Shown: positions 4,879 through 48,740 of the stretch, piece by piece
Position numbering within the stretch: the first letter of the stretch is position 1
How the letters are laid out: every line of letters begins with the position of its first letter
Notes under the pieces: model-generated
The model's database searches: none
Told to the model about the DNA's origin: nothing
Seen by the model: the letters and a program-made list of their open reading frames with translations, nothing else
Translations under genes and position numbers: made by a program
Assembly: GCA_016287985.1 (NCBI GenBank)
Contig: JAEEXX010000002.1
Location: 1 to 58,345 of the forward strand
Length of the DNA stretch: 58,345 nucleotides
Direction: 5' to 3'
From: Candidatus Gastranaerophilales bacterium
GTDB lineage: Bacteria > Cyanobacteriota > Vampirovibrionia > Gastranaerophilales > Gastranaerophilaceae

Positions 4879-5490
4879 TTATTCTCCTTGCTTTTTATCG
4901 AAAATTTGAGTTTTCGTGTTACCTTTAATTTTAAAACTGTCATATCCTGCTCTAATTATACATTCTTCTGCTGTAGAGAGCAATTCATTTCCCTTTTTTA
5001 TTCTTACATTACCTTTTGCAATAGTATCTTTATCGGAACCGGACCAAACTAAATGGTCTGCTTCTAATGATGTTGCATCCTTGAGTACGATATATGTATT
5101 TTCAAAAAGCGTTATTTCTCTGCTTTTTTCATTATATGAGCCTTTTGAAGATTGGAAGCTCATCGAAACTTCGTTATCCTTGTAAAAATTGCCGATAACG
5201 TTGTTCAGTATTGCAACTTTATCTTGATTGTTATAATTTCCGCTTTCACCATAAAGTTCAAAATATTTTGTACCGTCTTTTGTTTCCGTAATAATAATTC
5301 CGTTGGCATTTACTTTTTGGCTGTCTGCTCCGTTTTTAATTTGTGCTCTGTTGAAATTTCCGGTAATAACTCCGGCGGAAATAAAAGCCCAGCCAAGTAT
5401 AATAGTTATCAGCGCTGCTGCAATTAAATATCCTTTTTTACTTTTATCAAGTTTTTTAAATTTTTCAAATTCTTTTTTTAAAGACTTCAT
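4879..5490 (-). CDS. lptC: LptC-like inner-membrane protein
   Basis: A 203-aa protein with a basic N-terminus, one transmembrane helix at about residues 20-42 and a periplasmic beta-rich domain (GIIITETKDGTKYFELYGES, LEADHLVWSGSDKDTIAKGN). This is the layout of LptC, the bitopic subunit that hands lipopolysaccharide from LptFG to LptA. The final VRIKKGNELLSTAEE stretch matches the OstA-type strand pattern. It is the first gene of a tight three-gene operon with lptA and the TPR gene. Confidence 0.82.
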   Translation of the reverse strand: MKSLKKEFEKFKKLDKSKKGYLIAAALITIILGWAFISAGVITGNFNRAQIKNGADSQKVNANGIIITETKDGTKYFELYGESGNYNNQDKVAILNNVIGNFYKDNEVSMSFQSSKGSYNEKSREITLFENTYIVLKDATSLEADHLVWSGSDKDTIAKGNVRIKKGNELLSTAEECIIRAGYDSFKIKGNTKTQIFDKKQGE

Positions 5491-15488: not shown

Positions 15489-15578
15489 TGTTGAATAATT
15501 TTACAAGTACCAAATAAGATAATTATCTGTAGATACTTTGATAAAAATTTTTGTGTTATAATAAAGATATAATCATAT

Positions 15579-15650
15579 AGCGGTATCGTCTAGTGGTTAG
15601 GACGGGAGATTCTCATTCTCCAAACAGGGGTTCAATTCCCCTTACCGCCG
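15579..15650 (+). tRNA. tRNA-Glu (anticodon CTC)
   Basis: The cloverleaf folds as D-arm GTC...GAC, anticodon stem GGAGA/TCTCC with loop TTCTCAT (anticodon CTC at 15612-15614), T-arm AGGGG-TTCAATT-CCCCT, and acceptor AGCGGTA/TACCGCC with discriminator G. CCA is not encoded. Six of seven acceptor pairs form, but position 1 is A opposite C72, where G1-C72 is usual. A TATAAT at 15557-15562 is a plausible -10. A partial second copy of its 3' end lies about 200 bp downstream. Confidence 0.88.
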
Positions 15651-15691
15651 AATAAAACAGAGAATACATTTGTTGTATTCTCTGTTTTATT
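15651..15691 (+). terminator. tRNA-Glu terminator hairpin
   Basis: AATAAAACAGAGAATACA pairs with its 18-base complement around a five-base loop, starting directly after the discriminator base and ending TTTTATTTTAC. Confidence 0.8.
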
Positions 15692-15749: not shown

Positions 15750-15864
15750 AGCGACCTGTGAGCAGAGTGCGGAGGACTTTTCTTTGGAAGAAACGAAGTT
15801 TCTGAAAAGAAAATCCGAAGACACGTTTAATGCGAACAGGTCAAGACAATTCCCCTTACCGCCG
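15742..15864 (+). pseudogene. Truncated tRNA-Glu copy (T-arm and acceptor 3' half) split by palindromic element E1
   Basis: AGGGGTTC (15742-15749) and AATTCCCCTTACCGCCG (15848-15864) together rebuild exactly the T-arm and acceptor 3' strand of the intact tRNA-Glu upstream. They are separated by a 98-bp insertion in the middle of the T-loop. No 5' half is present, so this is not a functional tRNA. Confidence 0.8.
15750..15847 (+). repeat. Nested palindromic element E1 (98 bp) inserted in a T-loop
   Basis: It begins AGCGACCTG and ends ACAGGTCAAGAC. Outer stem GACCTGT/ACAGGTC encloses GTG/CAC, GGA/TCC and TTTTCTTT/AAAGAAAA, and an apical stem-loop AGAAACGAAGTTTCT. It shares ends, spacing and stem order with elements at 35020-35112 and 35479-35571, with compensating base changes. 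It has no coding capacity. One A at the junction can be assigned to either side, so there is at most a 1-bp target duplication. Confidence 0.8.
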
Positions 15865-34918: not shown

Positions 34919-35003
34919 GTTTGACAAACTATAATACGTTAGAATTTTAATGCGGACGGTTGATTGGTTTTACCCAACTCATGTTTATTTTGTTTTCAAA
35001 AAA

Positions 35004-35120
35004 TGTCGGAGAAGGGACTGTCTTGCTCGTTCGCGTTGAACGGCAATTCCGTGTTTTGCTTTTGTGATTTCATCACAACGCAAAAGCACTCCAGCCTCTG
35101 CTCACTCGCGCTCGAACCCT
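35004..35120 (-). pseudogene. Truncated tRNA-Leu copy (T-arm/acceptor 3' half) split by element E2
   Basis: On the minus strand AGGGTTCG (35120-35113) and AGTCCCTTCTCCGACA (35019-35004) rebuild the 3' end of the intact tRNA-Leu, interrupted in the T-loop by 93 bp. The 25 bases beyond the acceptor (TTGAAAACAAAATAAAC) are also duplicated, giving a repeat spacing of 178 bp (85 bp plus the 93-bp element). Confidence 0.8.
35020..35112 (-). repeat. Nested palindromic element E2 (93 bp) inserted in a T-loop
   Basis: Read on the minus strand it begins AGCGCGAGTGAGC and ends ACGAGCAAGAC. Stems GTG/CAC and TTTTGC/GCAAAA enclose apical TGTGATGAAATCACA. The apical GAA loop and flank layout match E1 and E3, with different but paired stem bases. 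The outer stem is weaker than in E1 and E3. GTGAGCAGAG is identical in E1. Confidence 0.78.
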
Positions 35121-35147
35121 GACAAGACTACGTCTTGTAGAGGGTTC
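35114..35147 (-). repeat. Hairpin of inverted and direct tRNA-Leu T-arm halves
   Basis: GAACCCT and AGGGTTC flank inner stem ACAAGAC/GTCTTGT with loop TAC. This is the tRNA-Leu counterpart of the hairpin at 15715-15749, which uses tRNA-Glu sequence. Confidence 0.7.
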
Positions 35148-35181
35148 TCGTCCTTTCTACGTTTATTTTGTTTTCAAAAAT

Positions 35182-35263
35182 TGTCGGAGAAGGGACTCGA
35201 ACCCTCAAGGAGTTACCCACATGAACCTGAATCATGCGCGTCTACCAATTTCGCCACTCCGAC
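35182..35263 (-). tRNA. tRNA-Leu (anticodon CAG)
   Basis: Acceptor GTCGGAG/CTCCGAC with discriminator A; D-arm with GGTAGAC; anticodon stem CATGA/TCATG with loop TTCAGGT (anticodon CAG). A class II variable arm follows, and the T-arm has loop TTCGAGT. CCA is not encoded. TATAAT lies about 15 bases upstream of the 5' end on the minus strand. Partial copies of both its ends flank it. Confidence 0.93.
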
Positions 35264-35377
35264 GCGTACTATTTAATTATAAATCTACAAATTTGTTCTG
35301 TCTACGTGGCGAATGTTGAGTCAAGCTCAACCCTCTCGGAAAACTTGACATTTAGTCAACTTTTCCTGCGGCAGAGT
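35253..35377 (-). repeat. Tandem repeat unit A (125 bp, empty site) at tRNA-Leu 5' side
   Basis: The unit starts with the first bases of tRNA-Leu (GTCGGAGTGGC on the minus strand), its promoter region, then hairpins GTTGAG-CTTGA-CTCAAC and TTGACTAAATGTCAA. It is followed directly by unit B. Its TTGACTAAATGTCAA loop is the uninterrupted form of the site occupied by E3 in unit B. Confidence 0.85.
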
Positions 35378-35595
35378 GCCACTCCGACGCGTACTATTTA
35401 ATTATAAATCTACAAATTTGTTCTGTCTACGTGGCGAATGTTGTGTCAAGCACAACCCTCTCGGAAAACCTGACATTTGTCTTGAATGCTCGCAATAAAC
35501 GTGCCTGCAGGTTTTGTTTCAAAGAACTTCGTTCTTTTACAAAAACCTTTCGCACTTGGCTCGCATTCGCTAGTCAGCTTTTCCTGCGGCAGAGT
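35378..35595 (-). repeat. Tandem repeat unit B (218 bp) containing element E3
   Basis: Unit B is unit A plus a 93-bp insertion (218 = 125 + 93). Hairpin stems differ in compensating fashion: GTTGTG-CTTGA-CACAAC here against GTTGAG-CTTGA-CTCAAC in unit A, and CTGAC/GTCAG against TTGAC/GTCAA. A third partial unit (first bases of tRNA-Leu) begins at 35596. Confidence 0.85.
35479..35571 (-). repeat. Nested palindromic element E3 (93 bp)
   Basis: On the minus strand it begins AGCGAATGCGAGC and ends GCGAGCATTCAAGAC. Outer stem GAATGC/GCATTC, inner GTG/CAC, AGG/CCT and TTTTGT/ACAAAA, apical AAAGAACGAAGTTCTTT. It interrupts the loop of a small hairpin between CTGACT and AAATGTCAG. The neighbouring unit A retains the empty site. 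Confidence 0.82.
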
Positions 35596-38340: not shown

Positions 38341-39585
38341 ATGAAATGCAACAAGATATGTGATAATTTTTATCCGTTCAGGGGTAATCTATATAATGCA
38401 ACGGCCTACGTTCAAGACCATACGCTTTTGAACAGAGGAATAACTACGCTTGGCGGAAGTACAATTCCTCAATGTATTATGTCTAATAATAAATATGAAG
38501 CTCAAGAACGTGGTATTATGGGCGGAATATATTTTATTGCTTCATATCTCACTCCGATACTTCTAATTCCTGTTTATAACAGATGTTTCATGAAAAATAA
38601 TGGAATAATTAAAAACTTTGATAAAACTGCGGAAAGAATCATCCAAGTTCCTAAAGAATATCTTACTAAAGAAGGCAATTTAGCCGAAGGATTAAAGAAA
38701 ACTGCAAAAATTTTTGATAAAAAGTTCAAAAATAACAGTACTAATAGAGCTTTTGATGAGATTTATGACCGATACAACAACCCTGAAAAGCTTAAACAAG
38801 ACCTGCTTTCCGTGCACGAAAAAGTCTTAATGACAGATTTTATAACAACCGCTGCAATGTGGTCTGCAATACCTTGGATAGCAACGGAGTTTACAGAACA
38901 CCGAACAAAACGTACCGATTTTTCTGCCGGTTTTAATTTAAAAACTAATAAACAGGTTGAAATAGAAAAATCAAAACAAAATAAAAAGAAGAAAATTGCT
39001 TGGAACATCGCTTTCGTAACAATTCCGGGAATTCTTTATGCCAAAACCGTTACAAAAGGATTGAGTTCCAAAGTTACAACAGATTCTAATTTTTTAATAA
39101 AATCAATAGCCAAAAATGCTAATAAATTTAATTATACTTCCGGCACAAATATGTCCAAATTTATTTATGCCTCAATTTGGCTGTTATCAAGTTTTCCGGC
39201 TAAAATTATTTCTGCAAGAGATTCAAATGAGCGGAAAGACAGAGCTTTGAGAGATGCAGGTTTATTTACAATGTTTTTTGGCGGAGATTTTCTCATTAAC
39301 AATATTTTGGGCAGATTATCAGATAAGTTTTTTAAAACTGAAATTATGGATACAAAAGACAAAAACTTGAACTTTATGCAAAAATTTAAACTTGGTTTAA
39401 AAAATTTCCGAAAACTTGATGAAGAAAAAAGTCTGCCTCTAGAAGTTTTGAACCGTACAAAAAAAGCAGGTGCAGCAATATATTGGCTTTCTTTGCTTAC
39501 AAATACCGCTTTAATTGGCTTTGCCCTGCCAAAAGTTCTGAATAAGTTTCTTAGAAAAAATATTGAAAAAGAACAGTCGGTTTGA
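38341..39585 (+). CDS. Membrane-associated hypothetical protein
   Basis: A 414-aa protein. About four to five hydrophobic segments (for example YFIASYLTPILLIPVY, IAWNIAFVTIPGILYA, YASIWLLSSFPAKII, ALIGFALPKVLNKFL) suggest an integral membrane protein. The N-terminus MKCNKICDNFYPFRGN may be a diverged leader (F-R-G). There is no ribosome binding site. The last 21 bases are repeated at 43223-43243. No family recognised. Confidence 0.65.
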   Translation: MKCNKICDNFYPFRGNLYNATAYVQDHTLLNRGITTLGGSTIPQCIMSNNKYEAQERGIMGGIYFIASYLTPILLIPVYNRCFMKNNGIIKNFDKTAERIIQVPKEYLTKEGNLAEGLKKTAKIFDKKFKNNSTNRAFDEIYDRYNNPEKLKQDLLSVHEKVLMTDFITTAAMWSAIPWIATEFTEHRTKRTDFSAGFNLKTNKQVEIEKSKQNKKKKIAWNIAFVTIPGILYAKTVTKGLSSKVTTDSNFLIKSIAKNANKFNYTSGTNMSKFIYASIWLLSSFPAKIISARDSNERKDRALRDAGLFTMFFGGDFLINNILGRLSDKFFKTEIMDTKDKNLNFMQKFKLGLKNFRKLDEEKSLPLEVLNRTKKAGAAIYWLSLLTNTALIGFALPKVLNKFLRKNIEKEQSV

Positions 39586-39623
39586 GAAAAATGAACAGGG
39601 TTTTTGATAATTTTTCATTAATT

Positions 39624-43184: not shown

Positions 43185-43220
43185 CTGGATTGCTTCGGGC
43201 ATTCGCCCTCGCAATGACTG
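43185..43220. repeat. REP-like palindrome (ATTGC...GCAAT)
   Basis: ATTGC-TTC-GGGC-ATTC-GCCC-TC-GCAAT forms a nested hairpin. The reverse strand reads CATTGCGAGGGC...GAAGCAATCCAG, the signature of a repeat type that is widespread in intergenic DNA of several bacterial groups. Confidence 0.65.
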
Positions 43221-43222
43221 TA

Positions 43223-43243
43223 AAAGAACAGTCGGTTTGAGAA
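43223..43243 (+). repeat. Copy of the 3' end of the 38341-39585 gene
   Basis: These 21 bases (AAAGAACAGTCGG...GAGAA) are identical to 39568-39588, which contain the last codons and stop of the membrane-protein gene. The flanking sequence does not continue the match. It may be the remnant of a lost paralogue. Confidence 0.55.
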
Positions 43244-43522
43244 TTTTTGACAGAAAATTTGAGAACTATTTAAAATTATTAAGGTCGTTTTGATAATTAT
43301 AGATTTCTATAAGAATGATAAAGGGGGAAATAGGAGAAAGAGTGGCTGTGTGTTTGGAATATAGGCTTATTGATTAAATTGACAAAAATGGGAAAAATGT
43401 CCGTTTTCTGTCCTCAAAAGTGACTATGAGTTTTTAAATTTTTAATTTTTGTTTGGATGTATTACCTAATATATTTGAGTTTTAGCCATTTAATAAAAAG
43501 TGCAAGAAAAGTGACATTTCGT

Positions 43523-43727: not shown

Positions 43728-44255
43728 TTATAAAAGATATTTATCCATTTTACAAAATGTATAATATACAGTAAGAATTTCCTGCTGAAAAAATTTATCA
43801 GACATTTTATCTTCAATCCAAGCTTTTGTGTTATCAACGGACAATGAAACTTTACCTCTACAAAAATTATTAGAGAAAATTTCATACGCAGTATTAAGCT
43901 TATTTTCAAAAGTTGCATCCGGATGTTTTTTTTCTATAAATTCCTTAATATATTTAATGAAAATATTATAATCTTTGATTATAGAACGAAAGTACTCAGA
44001 GCCATTATCATAATAAAAAAGTCTTTCCATATATTCATCAGCAGGTCTGAACATATTAGGTCCTGTTCCAAACATCCAATCAAAAGAAACATTATATGTA
44101 TCACAGAATAATTTCATTTTTTCTTTGCTTAATTCTGTTTGTCCGGTTTCTACTTTACTTAAATATTGTTTTGATACACCTAATTGGTCTGCAACTTCTT
44201 GCTGAGTAAGTTTAAGTTTATCTCTTATAAGTTTAATTTTTTCATTTTCGTACAT
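43728..44255 (-). CDS. XRE-family repressor of the Mu-like element
   Basis: A 175-aa protein with an N-terminal HTH_3 domain (residues 6-60: IRDKLKLTQQEVADQLGVSK, recognition helix near QYLSKVETG). The C-terminal half is helical and of unknown family. It is transcribed divergently from the transposase gene with 244 bp of operator-rich DNA between. By position and fold it is the likely repressor of the element. Confidence 0.85.
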   Translation of the reverse strand: MYENEKIKLIRDKLKLTQQEVADQLGVSKQYLSKVETGQTELSKEKMKLFCDTYNVSFDWMFGTGPNMFRPADEYMERLFYYDNGSEYFRSIIKDYNIFIKYIKEFIEKKHPDATFENKLNTAYEIFSNNFCRGKVSLSVDNTKAWIEDKMSDKFFQQEILTVYYTFCKMDKYLL

Positions 44256-44270
44256 TTGTAAACCTATGTG

Positions 44271-44299
44271 TTGACAACTAATAAAAAATAATTTATAAT
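44271..44299 (+). promoter_or_regulatory. Consensus promoter towards the transposase
   Basis: TTGACA (44271-44276), 17 bases, TATAAT (44294-44299): a perfect sigma-70 consensus. The transcript would have a leader of about 190 bases before the transposase ATG. Confidence 0.7.
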
Positions 44300-44315
44300 T
44301 TGATTAAAATATAAC

Positions 44316-44381
44316 ATGTAAATTTATATAAATCAACATATTAGTTTACAAATATGTCTAACTAAATATATAAATTTACAT
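44316..44381. promoter_or_regulatory. Paired inverted operators in the repressor-transposase intergenic region
   Basis: ATGTAAATTTATATA (44316-44330) is repeated in exact inverted orientation at 44367-44381. The first copy lies in the 17-base spacer of a minus-strand promoter TTGATT-N17-TATATT for the repressor gene. This is what an autoregulated phage-type switch would look like. Confidence 0.65.
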
Positions 44382-44499
44382 CAACACAAAACTTAAGAAA
44401 GCAGCTTTATACACTCCAATTAGTCCTGAATTAGAGCTAATATGTAGTGTGATATAAAGTGCGATTTTTCATACCCGACTTCAGGAGGTCGTAATATAA

Positions 44500-46473
44500 A
44501 TGCAAAACTGGATATCAGTGAAAGACTTAGCAAATATACAAGGTATTACCCCAAGAGCCGTAAGAAAAGCCGTCAATCAAAATAAATATATAAGCAGATT
44601 GGTTGACGGCGAAAAAGGCTCAAAGTATGAAATTTTGGTTCAATCCTTGAGTGAAGATACGCAAAATTTAATCGACTTTGAGAAAAGTAAAAACAAAATT
44701 GAGAAACAACGGGAACCGATTTTAAGAAAAAATAAGCAGGTTCCGCCTCATGCTATCCAAATAGCTCTTGCTCGGTATGACCTTGTAAACCTATGGGTTG
44801 ATTATAAAAATTCGCAGACAAATAAAACCGAAGCCGGAAAAGATTTCATTACAGCATACAATGTCGGGAAATTGTATCCGATTTTATTTAATGTAGTCGG
44901 TAAAGTTTCTATCGGAACAATTTATCGCTGGCATAAAAAATTACAAGCAAAATCCGATTACAGATTACTTATTCCAAATTATGATTATGGAGAAAAAGAA
45001 TGTACTGCAAATTTAACACCCGATGAGGAGCTAATTTTTAAATCACTTTTATTATCTCCAAATAAAATAAATATCGGTAAAGCAACAAAACTTACAAAAT
45101 TTATTCTGGGAAAACGTGGAATCGAATCCACATCATGTGAAAGAACATTCAGAAGATATGCCGATAACTTAAAACGCAGCCATTATGACGAATGGATATT
45201 ATCAAGAGAAGGACAAAAAGCTCTCCGAGATAAAGTTCAGCCATATATAACAAGAGATGTTTCTCAACTGGAAGTCGGAGATGTATTAGTAGCTGACGGA
45301 CACCGACTAGCCGTTCAATGTATAAATCCTTTTACCGGCAGACCATGCAGACCGACTTTAATAGGATACCTTGATTGGAAATCTACAGCATTAGTCGGTT
45401 ATGAAATTATGCTTGAAGAAAATACTCAAGCTATATCTTCAGCATTAAGAAATGCAATTATTAATTTAGGCAAAGTTCCTAAAATTTGTTATCAGGATAA
45501 CGGCAAAGCTTTTAGAGCAAAATTCTTTACCGGAGATTTTCAAGAAAGTGGAATTAACGGATTATTTAATAAATTAAATATTACTGCCGTATTTGCACAG
45601 CCCTATAATGCCAGAGCAAAAGTTATAGAAAGATTTTTTAGAGAACTTCAAGACGGATTTGAAAGACTACTTCCATCGTTTATCGGTTCCAACATATCCG
45701 ATAAACCTGCATATATGAAACGTAACGAAAAATTTCATAAAGCTGCACATAATGAATTTATTCCCACCATCGAGCAATTAACCAAAATGCTTGATTGTTA
45801 TATAGAATTTCATCAAAGTCTTGAATGCCCAAATATTAATGGTAAATCAATTGGCGAAGTTTTTGAAGATGGCAGAGGTAATGGTATTGATATAGAAGAA
45901 CTTGATGATTTAATGATGAGCAAAGAAATCAAAAACATAAATCGTAATGGAATCAGGTTCTTAAAAGCAGATTATTACAATGAATGTTTATATGGTCTGA
46001 AAGGTAAAGTAATAATAAAATACAGTTTATCAGATTTAACAAAAATAAAAATATATACCCTGAAAAATGAATTTATATGCACAGCAGAAAGAATTGCTCC
46101 GATAAATCCGATGGCGGAATATTTTGGTAATGTTAAGGATCAAGAAGAATTAAAATTCAAGCTTCGCCAACAAAAAATATTAGAAAAACAAACTATACAC
46201 AAAATTAAAAAATATCTGAAAACAGAACACATAAAACCTTTGGAATGGCAAAATATTCCGCAGATAGAAAATAAAACTACTGATATTATTAAAAACTCAA
46301 ACTCTGAACCTGAACCAAAAGACGGCAGACCTGAATTTGAATCAAGATGTGAAAGATATGAATGGCATTTGAATAACGGATTTGCTAATGATAACGATGT
46401 TGTTTGGTTTAAAGAATATGAACAGACTGACGAATATAAGCAGATTTACGGAGGAAGAACAAATGCAAGCTAA
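44500..46473 (+). CDS. Mu-type (MuA-like) DDE transposase
   Basis: A 657-aa transposase. An N-terminal winged helix (NWISVKDLANIQGITPRAVR) is followed by a linker and Ibeta/Igamma-type DNA-binding domains, then the RNase H-like catalytic core. Candidate catalytic residues are Asp266 (VADGHRL), Asp333 (CYQDNGKAF) and Glu377 (KVIERFFREL). A C-terminal beta-barrel and tail would contact MuB. CAGGAGG precedes the ATG. The gene overlaps the MuB-like gene by 11 bp. Structure and order match phage Mu and related transposons. Confidence 0.92.
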   Translation: MQNWISVKDLANIQGITPRAVRKAVNQNKYISRLVDGEKGSKYEILVQSLSEDTQNLIDFEKSKNKIEKQREPILRKNKQVPPHAIQIALARYDLVNLWVDYKNSQTNKTEAGKDFITAYNVGKLYPILFNVVGKVSIGTIYRWHKKLQAKSDYRLLIPNYDYGEKECTANLTPDEELIFKSLLLSPNKINIGKATKLTKFILGKRGIESTSCERTFRRYADNLKRSHYDEWILSREGQKALRDKVQPYITRDVSQLEVGDVLVADGHRLAVQCINPFTGRPCRPTLIGYLDWKSTALVGYEIMLEENTQAISSALRNAIINLGKVPKICYQDNGKAFRAKFFTGDFQESGINGLFNKLNITAVFAQPYNARAKVIERFFRELQDGFERLLPSFIGSNISDKPAYMKRNEKFHKAAHNEFIPTIEQLTKMLDCYIEFHQSLECPNINGKSIGEVFEDGRGNGIDIEELDDLMMSKEIKNINRNGIRFLKADYYNECLYGLKGKVIIKYSLSDLTKIKIYTLKNEFICTAERIAPINPMAEYFGNVKDQEELKFKLRQQKILEKQTIHKIKKYLKTEHIKPLEWQNIPQIENKTTDIIKNSNSEPEPKDGRPEFESRCERYEWHLNNGFANDNDVVWFKEYEQTDEYKQIYGGRTNAS

Positions 46474-47158
46474 ATTTCTAATGACTAAAAATGTGAAAAA
46501 GTTTGTAACTTTGGTCAATAATTTAATAAACAGAGCTGAAGGTGTTCCGGGAATGGCACTAGTTTATGGTGAGCCGGGACTCGGGAAATCTAAAGTAGCC
46601 TTATGGTGGTCAGCAAACAATGACGGGATTTTAATAACTGCAAAAAAGACAATGAGTCCGCATTGGCTGCTTGAAGAAATTGTTAAAGAAGTTGGCGAAA
46701 CACCTTTATACAAAAGTTCTGACTTATTTGACCAAGTTGTAAAAGCTTTAATTAAATATCCTAGAGTTATTATTGTAGACGAAGTTGATTATCTCATATC
46801 AGATAAAGATACAGTTGAAATACTCCGAGATATTCATGACAGAACACATAACCCGATTGTTTTAATCGGTATGAATTTTGCCGATAAGAAATTAAAACGC
46901 AATACTCATTTATATGATAGATTTTCAGAAATTTTGCATTTTGAAACATTTACAGCTAACGATATTGATATGTTTTTGAAGGAATTATCAGAGGTAAAAT
47001 TTACCCCCAAAGCAATTGACTATATACATCAAACCGGAAATCGTTTCCGACAAATAGTTAAATTAATAAATAAAGCAGAAGAGATGGCTGCTACAAATGA
47101 TTTAAAAGAAATAACATTAGAAATGGTTATGAAGATAACCAGAAAGGACCTTTTATGA
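46463..47158 (+). CDS. MuB-like AAA ATPase (transposition target selector)
   Basis: A 231-aa ATPase: Walker A GEPGLGKS at residues 36-43, Walker B VIIVDEVDYL near 103, sensor-type IVLIGMNF. MuB-family proteins bind target DNA, stimulate the transposase and give target immunity. The longer frame from 46382 is inside the transposase gene; GGAGG before ATG 46463 sets the start. It overlaps the following gene by ATGA. Confidence 0.9.
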   Translation: MQAKFLMTKNVKKFVTLVNNLINRAEGVPGMALVYGEPGLGKSKVALWWSANNDGILITAKKTMSPHWLLEEIVKEVGETPLYKSSDLFDQVVKALIKYPRVIIVDEVDYLISDKDTVEILRDIHDRTHNPIVLIGMNFADKKLKRNTHLYDRFSEILHFETFTANDIDMFLKELSEVKFTPKAIDYIHQTGNRFRQIVKLINKAEEMAATNDLKEITLEMVMKITRKDLL

Positions 47159-47904
47159 CAAAAAAGAAAATATGCTATTTATCCCGAAAATTAAAAGCAT
47201 TTACCTTTGAAGAACTTTATGTTCTCTCAGAAACACCAAAAGATGAATTAAAACAAATCCTGCAAACTTTGGTCAAAGAAAATATTTTAAAGAAAACTTC
47301 ACAGGGGTATGTGTATTGTGAATTTGATTATATTCCACCACCTGCTGAACCAACAGTCAAAGCCGAGTCCGTTAAATTTGTAAGAGATGATGATTATATC
47401 AAATTCAAAACAAAAGCTGTTATACCGGATTTTATTTCTGCAAAAAATTTATCAAATGAAGAATTAGAGAAGATTCCGGAATATAACTTAAGGACATATT
47501 ATAAATATTTACACCTTCTTAAAATAACCAATGGATTATACGGAAACAAATTAAAAGAATTTATAAAGGAATATAACCTGCAAAATCCAATGGAGCCTAC
47601 AAGCTATCAATCGGTTATTCGTAAAAGGAAAGCATATGTAAAATTTGGTGATGTAGCATTAGTTTCAAAATACGGACAAATAAGGAAACCTTATTATCCT
47701 GATATGCCAAAATATTACAAGATATTTAAGGAATATTACCTAAAACCTTACTATTACACAATAGAACAATGCAGACAAAAAGTTGCACAGAAGTTAAGAA
47801 TACCGATACAAAAATTACCAAGTGGTATGAGTTTTCGCAGGTGCTTATATAAAGAAATGAGTCTTGAAGAAATTCACGAATTAAGGAGCAAACTATGTTT
47901 TTAA
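47155..47904 (+). CDS. Mu-like element accessory protein
   Basis: A 249-aa protein. The N-terminal 60 residues look like a winged helix (KLKAFTFEELYVLSETPKDELK, then LVKENILKKTSQGYVY). The C-terminal 110 residues contain YYLKPYYYTIEQCRQKVAQKLRIPIQ, which reads like a second helix-turn-helix unit similar to transposase DNA-binding domains. It overlaps MuB by 4 bp and the next gene by 10 bp, so it is part of the transposon operon. Role unknown. Confidence 0.75.
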   Translation: MTKKKICYLSRKLKAFTFEELYVLSETPKDELKQILQTLVKENILKKTSQGYVYCEFDYIPPPAEPTVKAESVKFVRDDDYIKFKTKAVIPDFISAKNLSNEELEKIPEYNLRTYYKYLHLLKITNGLYGNKLKEFIKEYNLQNPMEPTSYQSVIRKRKAYVKFGDVALVSKYGQIRKPYYPDMPKYYKIFKEYYLKPYYYTIEQCRQKVAQKLRIPIQKLPSGMSFRRCLYKEMSLEEIHELRSKLCF

Positions 47905-48089
47905 AAAAGCGAGCAAATGCAATAAAAAAAGCAATGCTATACAAACATACCAACCAAAAGAAAATTGCACAGCACTTGGGCATATCTGAATCTTACGTTA
48001 CAAGACTTATTAACGGCGAACGATATTACAGAGAATTTGAAATATTTATACGATATGAACTCGGTGTCAGTTATACAAATTTTAGATAA
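47895..48089 (+). CDS. Small helix-turn-helix protein
   Basis: A 64-aa protein with one HTH (KKIAQHLGISESYVTRLING). GGAG precedes the ATG. It overlaps the preceding gene by 10 bp. It is probably a Ner/Cro-like regulator of the element, by analogy with Mu. Confidence 0.72.
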   Translation: MFLKKRANAIKKAMLYKHTNQKKIAQHLGISESYVTRLINGERYYREFEIFIRYELGVSYTNFR

Positions 48090-48101
48090 AGGAGAAAATT
48101 A

Positions 48102-48740
48102 ATGAAAAATAAAATACAAGAAAAAAAAGAATTATTTTTAAATAAAAAAGCAGAATATGACAAAATCAGACACGATGATAATGATTTATGCGAAAGGTTA
48201 AATGCTGCCGAAGAAAACATTGTAAGCCTGCAAGAAGAAATGGATGGTCTAAAACAAAAAAGACCTGCAATGTTAGCTGATAATGAAGATATCACAGCTT
48301 TGAATAAAAGACTAAAAGCAATTGAAGAAGAAATTGAAATAAATAAAGATACAATTACCGGAATAACCGCCAAACGTAAGTCTATGCATAATCCTATTCT
48401 TAGCTTACGACAAGATGTTAATTCTGAATTCCAAAATTATATAAAAGCAATTCTTACAAATCTGAGAAAAGACTATATGAAACTTGCGCCAAAACTTGCC
48501 GAAATATTAAAAGATTATATTGCACTTGAAACTATACGTGATGGAGACGGAACAAATTATGCGTGTTTTAACATAGATGATATAAAATGTTTGCCAAATT
48601 TTGACGATGAAAAGCACCCATTATTTAAATACCAATATTATGGAATTGCCAGAGAAAACAGAGAACATGTTAGAGAAAAATATGACATACCTGATTATTA
48701 TGTTCAACGTGTAAGTTTTACGGATTATATTAATGACTAA
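48102..48740 (+). CDS. Coiled-coil accessory protein of the Mu-like element
   Basis: A 212-aa protein. Residues 1-90 are a long Lys/Glu-rich coiled coil (for example LCERLNAAEENIVSLQEEMD), and the C-terminal half is a small mixed domain (ETIRDGDGTNYACFN). AAAGGAG precedes the ATG. It ends the operon at a terminator. Its coiled-coil form and position recall the Gam-type end-protection proteins of Mu, but I see no firm sequence match. Confidence 0.7.
   Translation: MKNKIQEKKELFLNKKAEYDKIRHDDNDLCERLNAAEENIVSLQEEMDGLKQKRPAMLADNEDITALNKRLKAIEEEIEINKDTITGITAKRKSMHNPILSLRQDVNSEFQNYIKAILTNLRKDYMKLAPKLAEILKDYIALETIRDGDGTNYACFNIDDIKCLPNFDDEKHPLFKYQYYGIARENREHVREKYDIPDYYVQRVSFTDYIND

Follow-up and report, generated by a model that had tools for sequence, protein, structure and literature searches.

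Two copies of one sequence unit lie next to each other beside a tRNA-Leu gene of a Gastranaerophilales bacterium, and one of the two (unit B) carries a stretch of 93 bp, here called E3, that the other (unit A) lacks. The locus raises the question of what E3 is and how it came to reside there. The window (the whole 58,345-nucleotide stretch of DNA that was analysed) is contig C39 of a MAG of 2.01 Mb in 211 contigs. The sizes given for the two units in the original prediction, 125 bp for the empty unit A and 218 bp for the filled unit B, were borne out, and in a base-by-base alignment the 93 bp form a single clean insert that leaves 125 bp facing 125 bp. When the 93 bp are cut from unit B at offset 100 or 101 (equal to the removal of 35478–35570 or 35479–35571 of the window), four mismatches remain, and all other splits are worse. 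The one base left ambiguous at the E3 border reads A on the strand of the element, and the alignment agrees with the earlier claim that there is no target duplication beyond it. The loop sequences quoted earlier are correct and belong to the minus strand, which is also that of tRNA-Leu. The description of the pair as a tandem repeat holds in that there are two units, but this is not an ordinary repeat: the host unit is a tRNA-Leu-derived, promoter-bearing hairpin unit, which forms a repeated family of its own.

Features of the tRNA-Leu locus and related element copies in the window
Feature	Position	Strand	Composition or evidence
Intact tRNA-Leu (CAG)	35182–35263	-	ARAGORN; Rfam RF00005, 53.1 bits
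Unit A, empty	35253–35377	-	Promoter copy, first 11–13 nt of tRNA-Leu, core1, H2 (GTTGAG/CTCAAC), inverted tRNA arm ATTCGCCAC
Unit B, filled	35378–35595	-	As unit A, but H2 is GTTGTG/CACAAC and the 93-bp E3 lies in the core1 loop
E3, core2 family copy, (A)GCG...CAAGAC(A), 93 bp plus one ambiguous A	35478–35571	-	
core1 hairpin of unit A	35332–35377	-	ACTCTGCCG - stem - TGACTAAATGTCA - stem - GAGAGG; family listing, stem covariation
Diverged core2 copy	35020–35109	-	T-loop of partial tRNA-Leu 3′ copy (GGGTTCGA^...^GTCCCTTCTCCGACA); covariance model R1, 61.1 bits
tRNA-Leu 3′ appendage	34983–35160	-	Partial copy of the tRNA 3′ part, plus hairpin, core2 and a duplicate of the 3′ flank
core2 copy	15751–15847	+	T-loop of partial tRNA-Glu 3′ copy (GGGGTTCA^...^ATTCCCC); covariance model R1, 94.7 bits

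Both units are appended to the 5′ side of tRNA-Leu. On the minus strand, each consists of a promoter-like sequence, GCGTCGGAGTGGC (the 5′ end of tRNA-Leu), the core1 hairpin, a second hairpin (H2) and the terminal arm, which is an inverted copy of GTGGCGAAT in tRNA-Leu, one base off the tRNA. Across 21 distinct 5′ units, the inverted match of the segment that follows core1 is longer to the unit's own tRNA than to other tRNAs: it amounts to 7.1 nt, compared to a permutation mean of 5.1 nt, and 0 of 5000 permutations gave a match as high. For the 3′ units, the idea of an inverted T-arm copy was dropped because the outer helix was not significant in the permutation test. Above the gathering score, an Rfam covariance-model search returned nothing but tRNA-Leu and tRNA-Glu.

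The hairpin that hosts E3 is widespread. A pattern search of 386 genomes from the phylum found TGACTAAATGTCA in 109 of them, the reversed control pattern being near zero. The matches are concentrated in the family of the organism itself (f1), where a single genome holds as many as 41 copies, and two or three genera belonging to another family (f3) carry the sequence as well. In the D-arms of partial tRNA copies, core1 has two preferred positions, one after about nucleotide 11–12 and the other after about nucleotide 18–20, which falls between G18 and G19; further copies lie antisense in tRNA T-arms, inside partial copies of 5S rRNA and within intergenic repeats. As a rule the core1 loop is unoccupied (138 distinct sequences). 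At the tRNA-Leu locus itself, seven relatives have the same upstream gene followed by tRNA-Leu without a unit, while the orthologous locus holds three core1 units each in two other genomes (G303 and G005) and two in this one. Since the arrays vary from zero to three units between species, they must have been gained, lost or amplified.

E3 belongs to a different family, core2, which was searched for in this genome both by pattern and by model. It matches covariance model R1 at 35479–35570 with 82.7 bits and is one of 13 copies in the genome; core2 is present in 19 of 23 sampled genomes. Among the matches listed in a scan of the collection, the core2 records that bear a name are for the most part Candidatus Gastranaerophilales or unnamed MAGs of cyanobacterial or rumen origin; the few records under other labels are taken to be misnamed bins. 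The family has two internal conserved motifs (GAGCAGAGTGCGRAG and GRCACGTTTAAYGCGA) and covarying stems, in which 13 of 20 pairs are altered on both sides. The original prediction that the filled and empty sites define the ends of the element is sustained by the family as a whole, in which the same termini border other core2 copies: 87 of the 97 distinct copies with a readable GCG start have an A before GCG, and 83 have an A after CAAGAC. More than half of these copies (54 of 97) interrupt a partial tRNA copy in its T-loop (TTCGA^), and the intact gene for that tRNA is in the same locus. They span 14 amino-acid types and are always in the sense orientation relative to the tRNA. Another 19 of the 97 have TTC-like flanks, mostly GTTCGA. 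The tRNA-Glu copy in the window follows this arrangement, its intact tRNA-Glu lying upstream at 15578–15651. As core1 and core2 copies are kin by descent, independent transpositions are fewer than these copy counts.

Two further core2 occurrences stand apart. In G005, the end of a contig (L188, C19:19331–20047) holds a cluster of at least five nearly identical copies, some of them arranged head to tail. On an IMG/VR contig classed as viral (L225), a copy on the minus strand near position 5171 lies in frame inside an ORF of 195 residues. Carriage by phages was considered and set aside: the four IMG/VR matches to the core1 pattern look like chance, and 21 of the 22 matches to a core2 16-mer are without the rest of core2, leaving L225 as the only real one.

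The four mismatches that separate units A and B form two complementary pairs, at unit offsets 67/75 (A–T to T–A) and 93/107 (T–A to C–G), and these double changes fall in two hairpins, one per hairpin stem. The chance of such pairing from four random substitutions is about 5e-6 (31 stem pairs counted), so that hairpin pairing is either selected or kept by hairpin-templated repair. Since core1 and E3 both come from dispersed families with many copies, the pattern seen in units A and B is not a chance one.

On balance, E3 is probably a non-autonomous mobile hairpin, in which folded DNA serves as the donor and is placed into hairpin loops by a trans-acting enzyme. E3 would have inserted once, precisely, in the apical loop of core1 in the outer of the two tandem tRNA-Leu leader units. 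The core2 element may move as a folded DNA hairpin, either as single-stranded DNA or as a cruciform, and the enzyme would attach both ends of the element at one defined nucleotide where the loop of a different DNA hairpin is exposed. The usual target would be the T-loop of a tRNA gene after A58, and sometimes the core1 loop. The number of units could then change through ordinary recombination between direct repeats.

No transposase was found among the domains and neighbours examined (Y1, IS110, reverse transcriptase and flanking ORFs). Y1 (PF01797) is absent from this genome (G000) and from G350, G398, G385, G305 and G196, among many high-copy genomes. Y1/RAYT was rejected as the mobiliser because of this absence and because its own loci are flanked by other REPs. 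In relatives, RAYT-like Y1 transposase genes (L234–L237 and L239) have REPs of their own on their flanks, of the GTTGGG/CCCAAC or the GTCGGG type, and these REPs are unrelated to core1 and core2. IS110 was rejected with Transposase_20 (PF02371) in 0 of 23 genomes, as was reverse transcriptase (PF00078), which is patchy and absent from this genome and six other element-bearing genomes (G020, G425, G198, G350, G186 and G160). Clustering of ORFs in the 1.5-kb flanks of about 200 loci gave no recurrent neighbour protein. An integron attC site was dropped, as no GTTRRRY core site was seen by eye.

That the search turned up no mobiliser fits an explanation with no dedicated enzyme, in which hairpins are copied between loops by cruciform template switching during replication, followed by gene conversion. 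It would also account for the differences between units A and B, all four of which are paired double changes of the kind produced by quasi-palindrome correction, and for the arm of the local tRNA that is repeated in inverted form in the 5′ units. However, core2 has identical ends in unrelated targets that share no flank (the T-loop and the core1 loop), and pure correction would erase the G.G mismatch of the core1 stem, which is conserved in 85 of 134 sequences. We regard template switching as rather unlikely.

The transfer of a folded DNA hairpin agrees with the composition of the stems. The ratio of G.T to A.C is 11:11 in element stems versus 74:9 in the tRNA acceptor stems of the same loci (Fisher p=1.6e-4), and G.T accounts for 1.3% of core1 pairs versus 7.2% of tRNA pairs (p=3e-9), although these p-values are optimistic because the sequences are related. 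The second pair outside GAC...GTC occurs as all four Watson–Crick types and is paired in 136 of 138 sequences, versus 43 on average after shuffling. As the element stems are without the G·U excess of tRNAs, their pairing seems to be maintained at the DNA level.

This bears on an RNA-level route, in which core2 RNA would be joined or reverse-spliced into the loops of transcripts (tRNAs or others), then copied into DNA by reverse transcription and brought into the genome by recombination. The targets are indeed loops of RNA genes, the uniform sense orientation of T-loop core2 is what an RNA mechanism would also predict, and the nesting of core2 in core1 recalls twintrons. The lack of a G·U excess argues against this route, as do the antisense core1 copies in tRNA T-arms, the copies in partial 5S copies and the absence of a reverse transcriptase domain from the seven genomes named above. 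It is thus an unlikely explanation.

Insertion of core2 into a core1 loop was found three times, in E3 and in two other assemblies (L278 and L333), always at GACT|A|AATGTC. The host site of L278 is a core1 within a partial 5S copy, and the same site is empty in genome G020 (L085), where the comparison defines an insert of 99 bp between flanks that are identical at 164 of 166 positions. The reverse nesting, core1 inside core2, is present at five loci (L130, L133, L136, L139 and L150). The recurrence at the same nucleotide and the empty L085 allele identify E3 as a mobile-element insertion with defined ends and not as an oddity of the assembly. Insertion is precise, has fixed ends, is targeted to hairpin loops and can be nested.

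The original prediction of a precise event was correct, and the choice between insertion and excision, which it had left undecided, can be taken further. In what they contain, units A and B differ only in E3, and the pair alone gives no direction, so unit B could be ancestral and unit A derived from it by precise excision of E3. This is very unlikely, since core1 loops throughout the family are as a rule empty, core2 is independent of core1 and mostly found outside it, and the orthologous site in the 5S copy is empty in G020. An assembly artefact or a chimera of two loci, which the origin of the window in a fragmented MAG and the poor handling of repeats by short reads might suggest, is highly improbable, as the same junction occurs in two independent assemblies (L278 and L333) and the E3 termini agree with the rest of the core2 family.

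Both core1 and core2 are small palindromic mobile repeats, a known kind, and their choice of targets is unusual. Among described elements, their nearest counterparts are Rickettsia palindromic elements and REPs. The former are palindromic mobile repeats of about 100–150 bp with no known mobiliser, which sit inside RNA genes (tmRNA, M1 RNA) and occur as in-frame insertions in ORFs (PMC2229807). In behaviour core2 resembles them, being a palindrome of about 100 bp that is inserted both in RNA genes (the T-loop copies) and in an ORF (L225), whereas the host here is Gastranaerophilales and insertion is at fixed nucleotides of hairpin loops, chiefly in tRNA T-loops and D-arms and also in the loops of the second family. 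REPs and REPINs are imperfect DNA palindromes with a covarying stem, non-autonomous and associated with RAYT (PMC3733652, PMC3116915). The elements here share with them an imperfect hairpin, a conserved mismatch (the G.G of core1 above) and DNA-level pairing (the even G.T to A.C ratio), but no GTAG/CGTC tag logic is seen here, and Y1 is absent from most genomes tested and flanked by unrelated REPs where present. Yeast mitochondrial GC clusters and the double-hairpin elements of Allomyces are also small hairpin-forming mobile DNA, with units that merge and shuffle by a debated mechanism, and GC42 uses an AG target (PMC4478555). Unlike core1 and core2, these elements are organellar, and the target of GC42 is not a tRNA loop. 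In the same phylum as the host of core1 and core2, filamentous cyanobacteria reportedly carry small dispersed repeats (SDR; Elhai et al. 2008), very small mobile repeats that are said to be about 20–27 nt long, some of them in structured RNA genes; compared to SDRs of that reported length, core1 and core2 are longer, structured and directed to tRNA loops. No description was found in the open-access literature on Gastranaerophilales or Melainabacteria repeats and tRNA-loop elements. It is possible, if somewhat doubtful, that these repeats represent an undescribed Gastranaerophilales system with folded DNA hairpins as both donor and target. A novel enzyme family would transfer core2 strands into the apical loop of a tRNA T-arm or of core1, and the units at tRNA ends (partial tRNA, inverted arm and promoter copy) would keep the tRNA gene functional.

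The window has other features besides these elements. A Mu-like transposase gene (44500–46473; Mu-transpos_C and rve domains) with an adjoining HTH regulator lies in the region 43728–48740, which probably represents a Mu-like prophage that extends in the direction of the contig end. A dispersed repeat, AAAAGAACAGTCGGTTTGAGAA, is found at several loci in this genome and a relative, namely at 39564–39615 and 43219–43270 of the window and at L087 and L020. Between 39620 and 41613, a leader-like sequence of 44 nt (TAGCAAATTTTATTTTCAGGGGTTTT) occurs three times, just upstream of three consecutive ORFs that have no Pfam match.

Small palindromic repeats are common in bacteria, but one can seldom see what they target or how they move. 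At this locus a filled site adjoins an empty one, a further nested copy has an empty orthologous allele, the ends of the element are exactly defined, and it has entered a hairpin loop. The case of E3 in core1 gives a testable model of hairpin-into-hairpin movement. Together, core1 and core2 explain a striking layer of repeats associated with tRNA genes in an abundant uncultured gut lineage, and they bring to light a poorly known group of very small mobile DNAs that are aimed at the loops of tRNA genes and at each other's loops.
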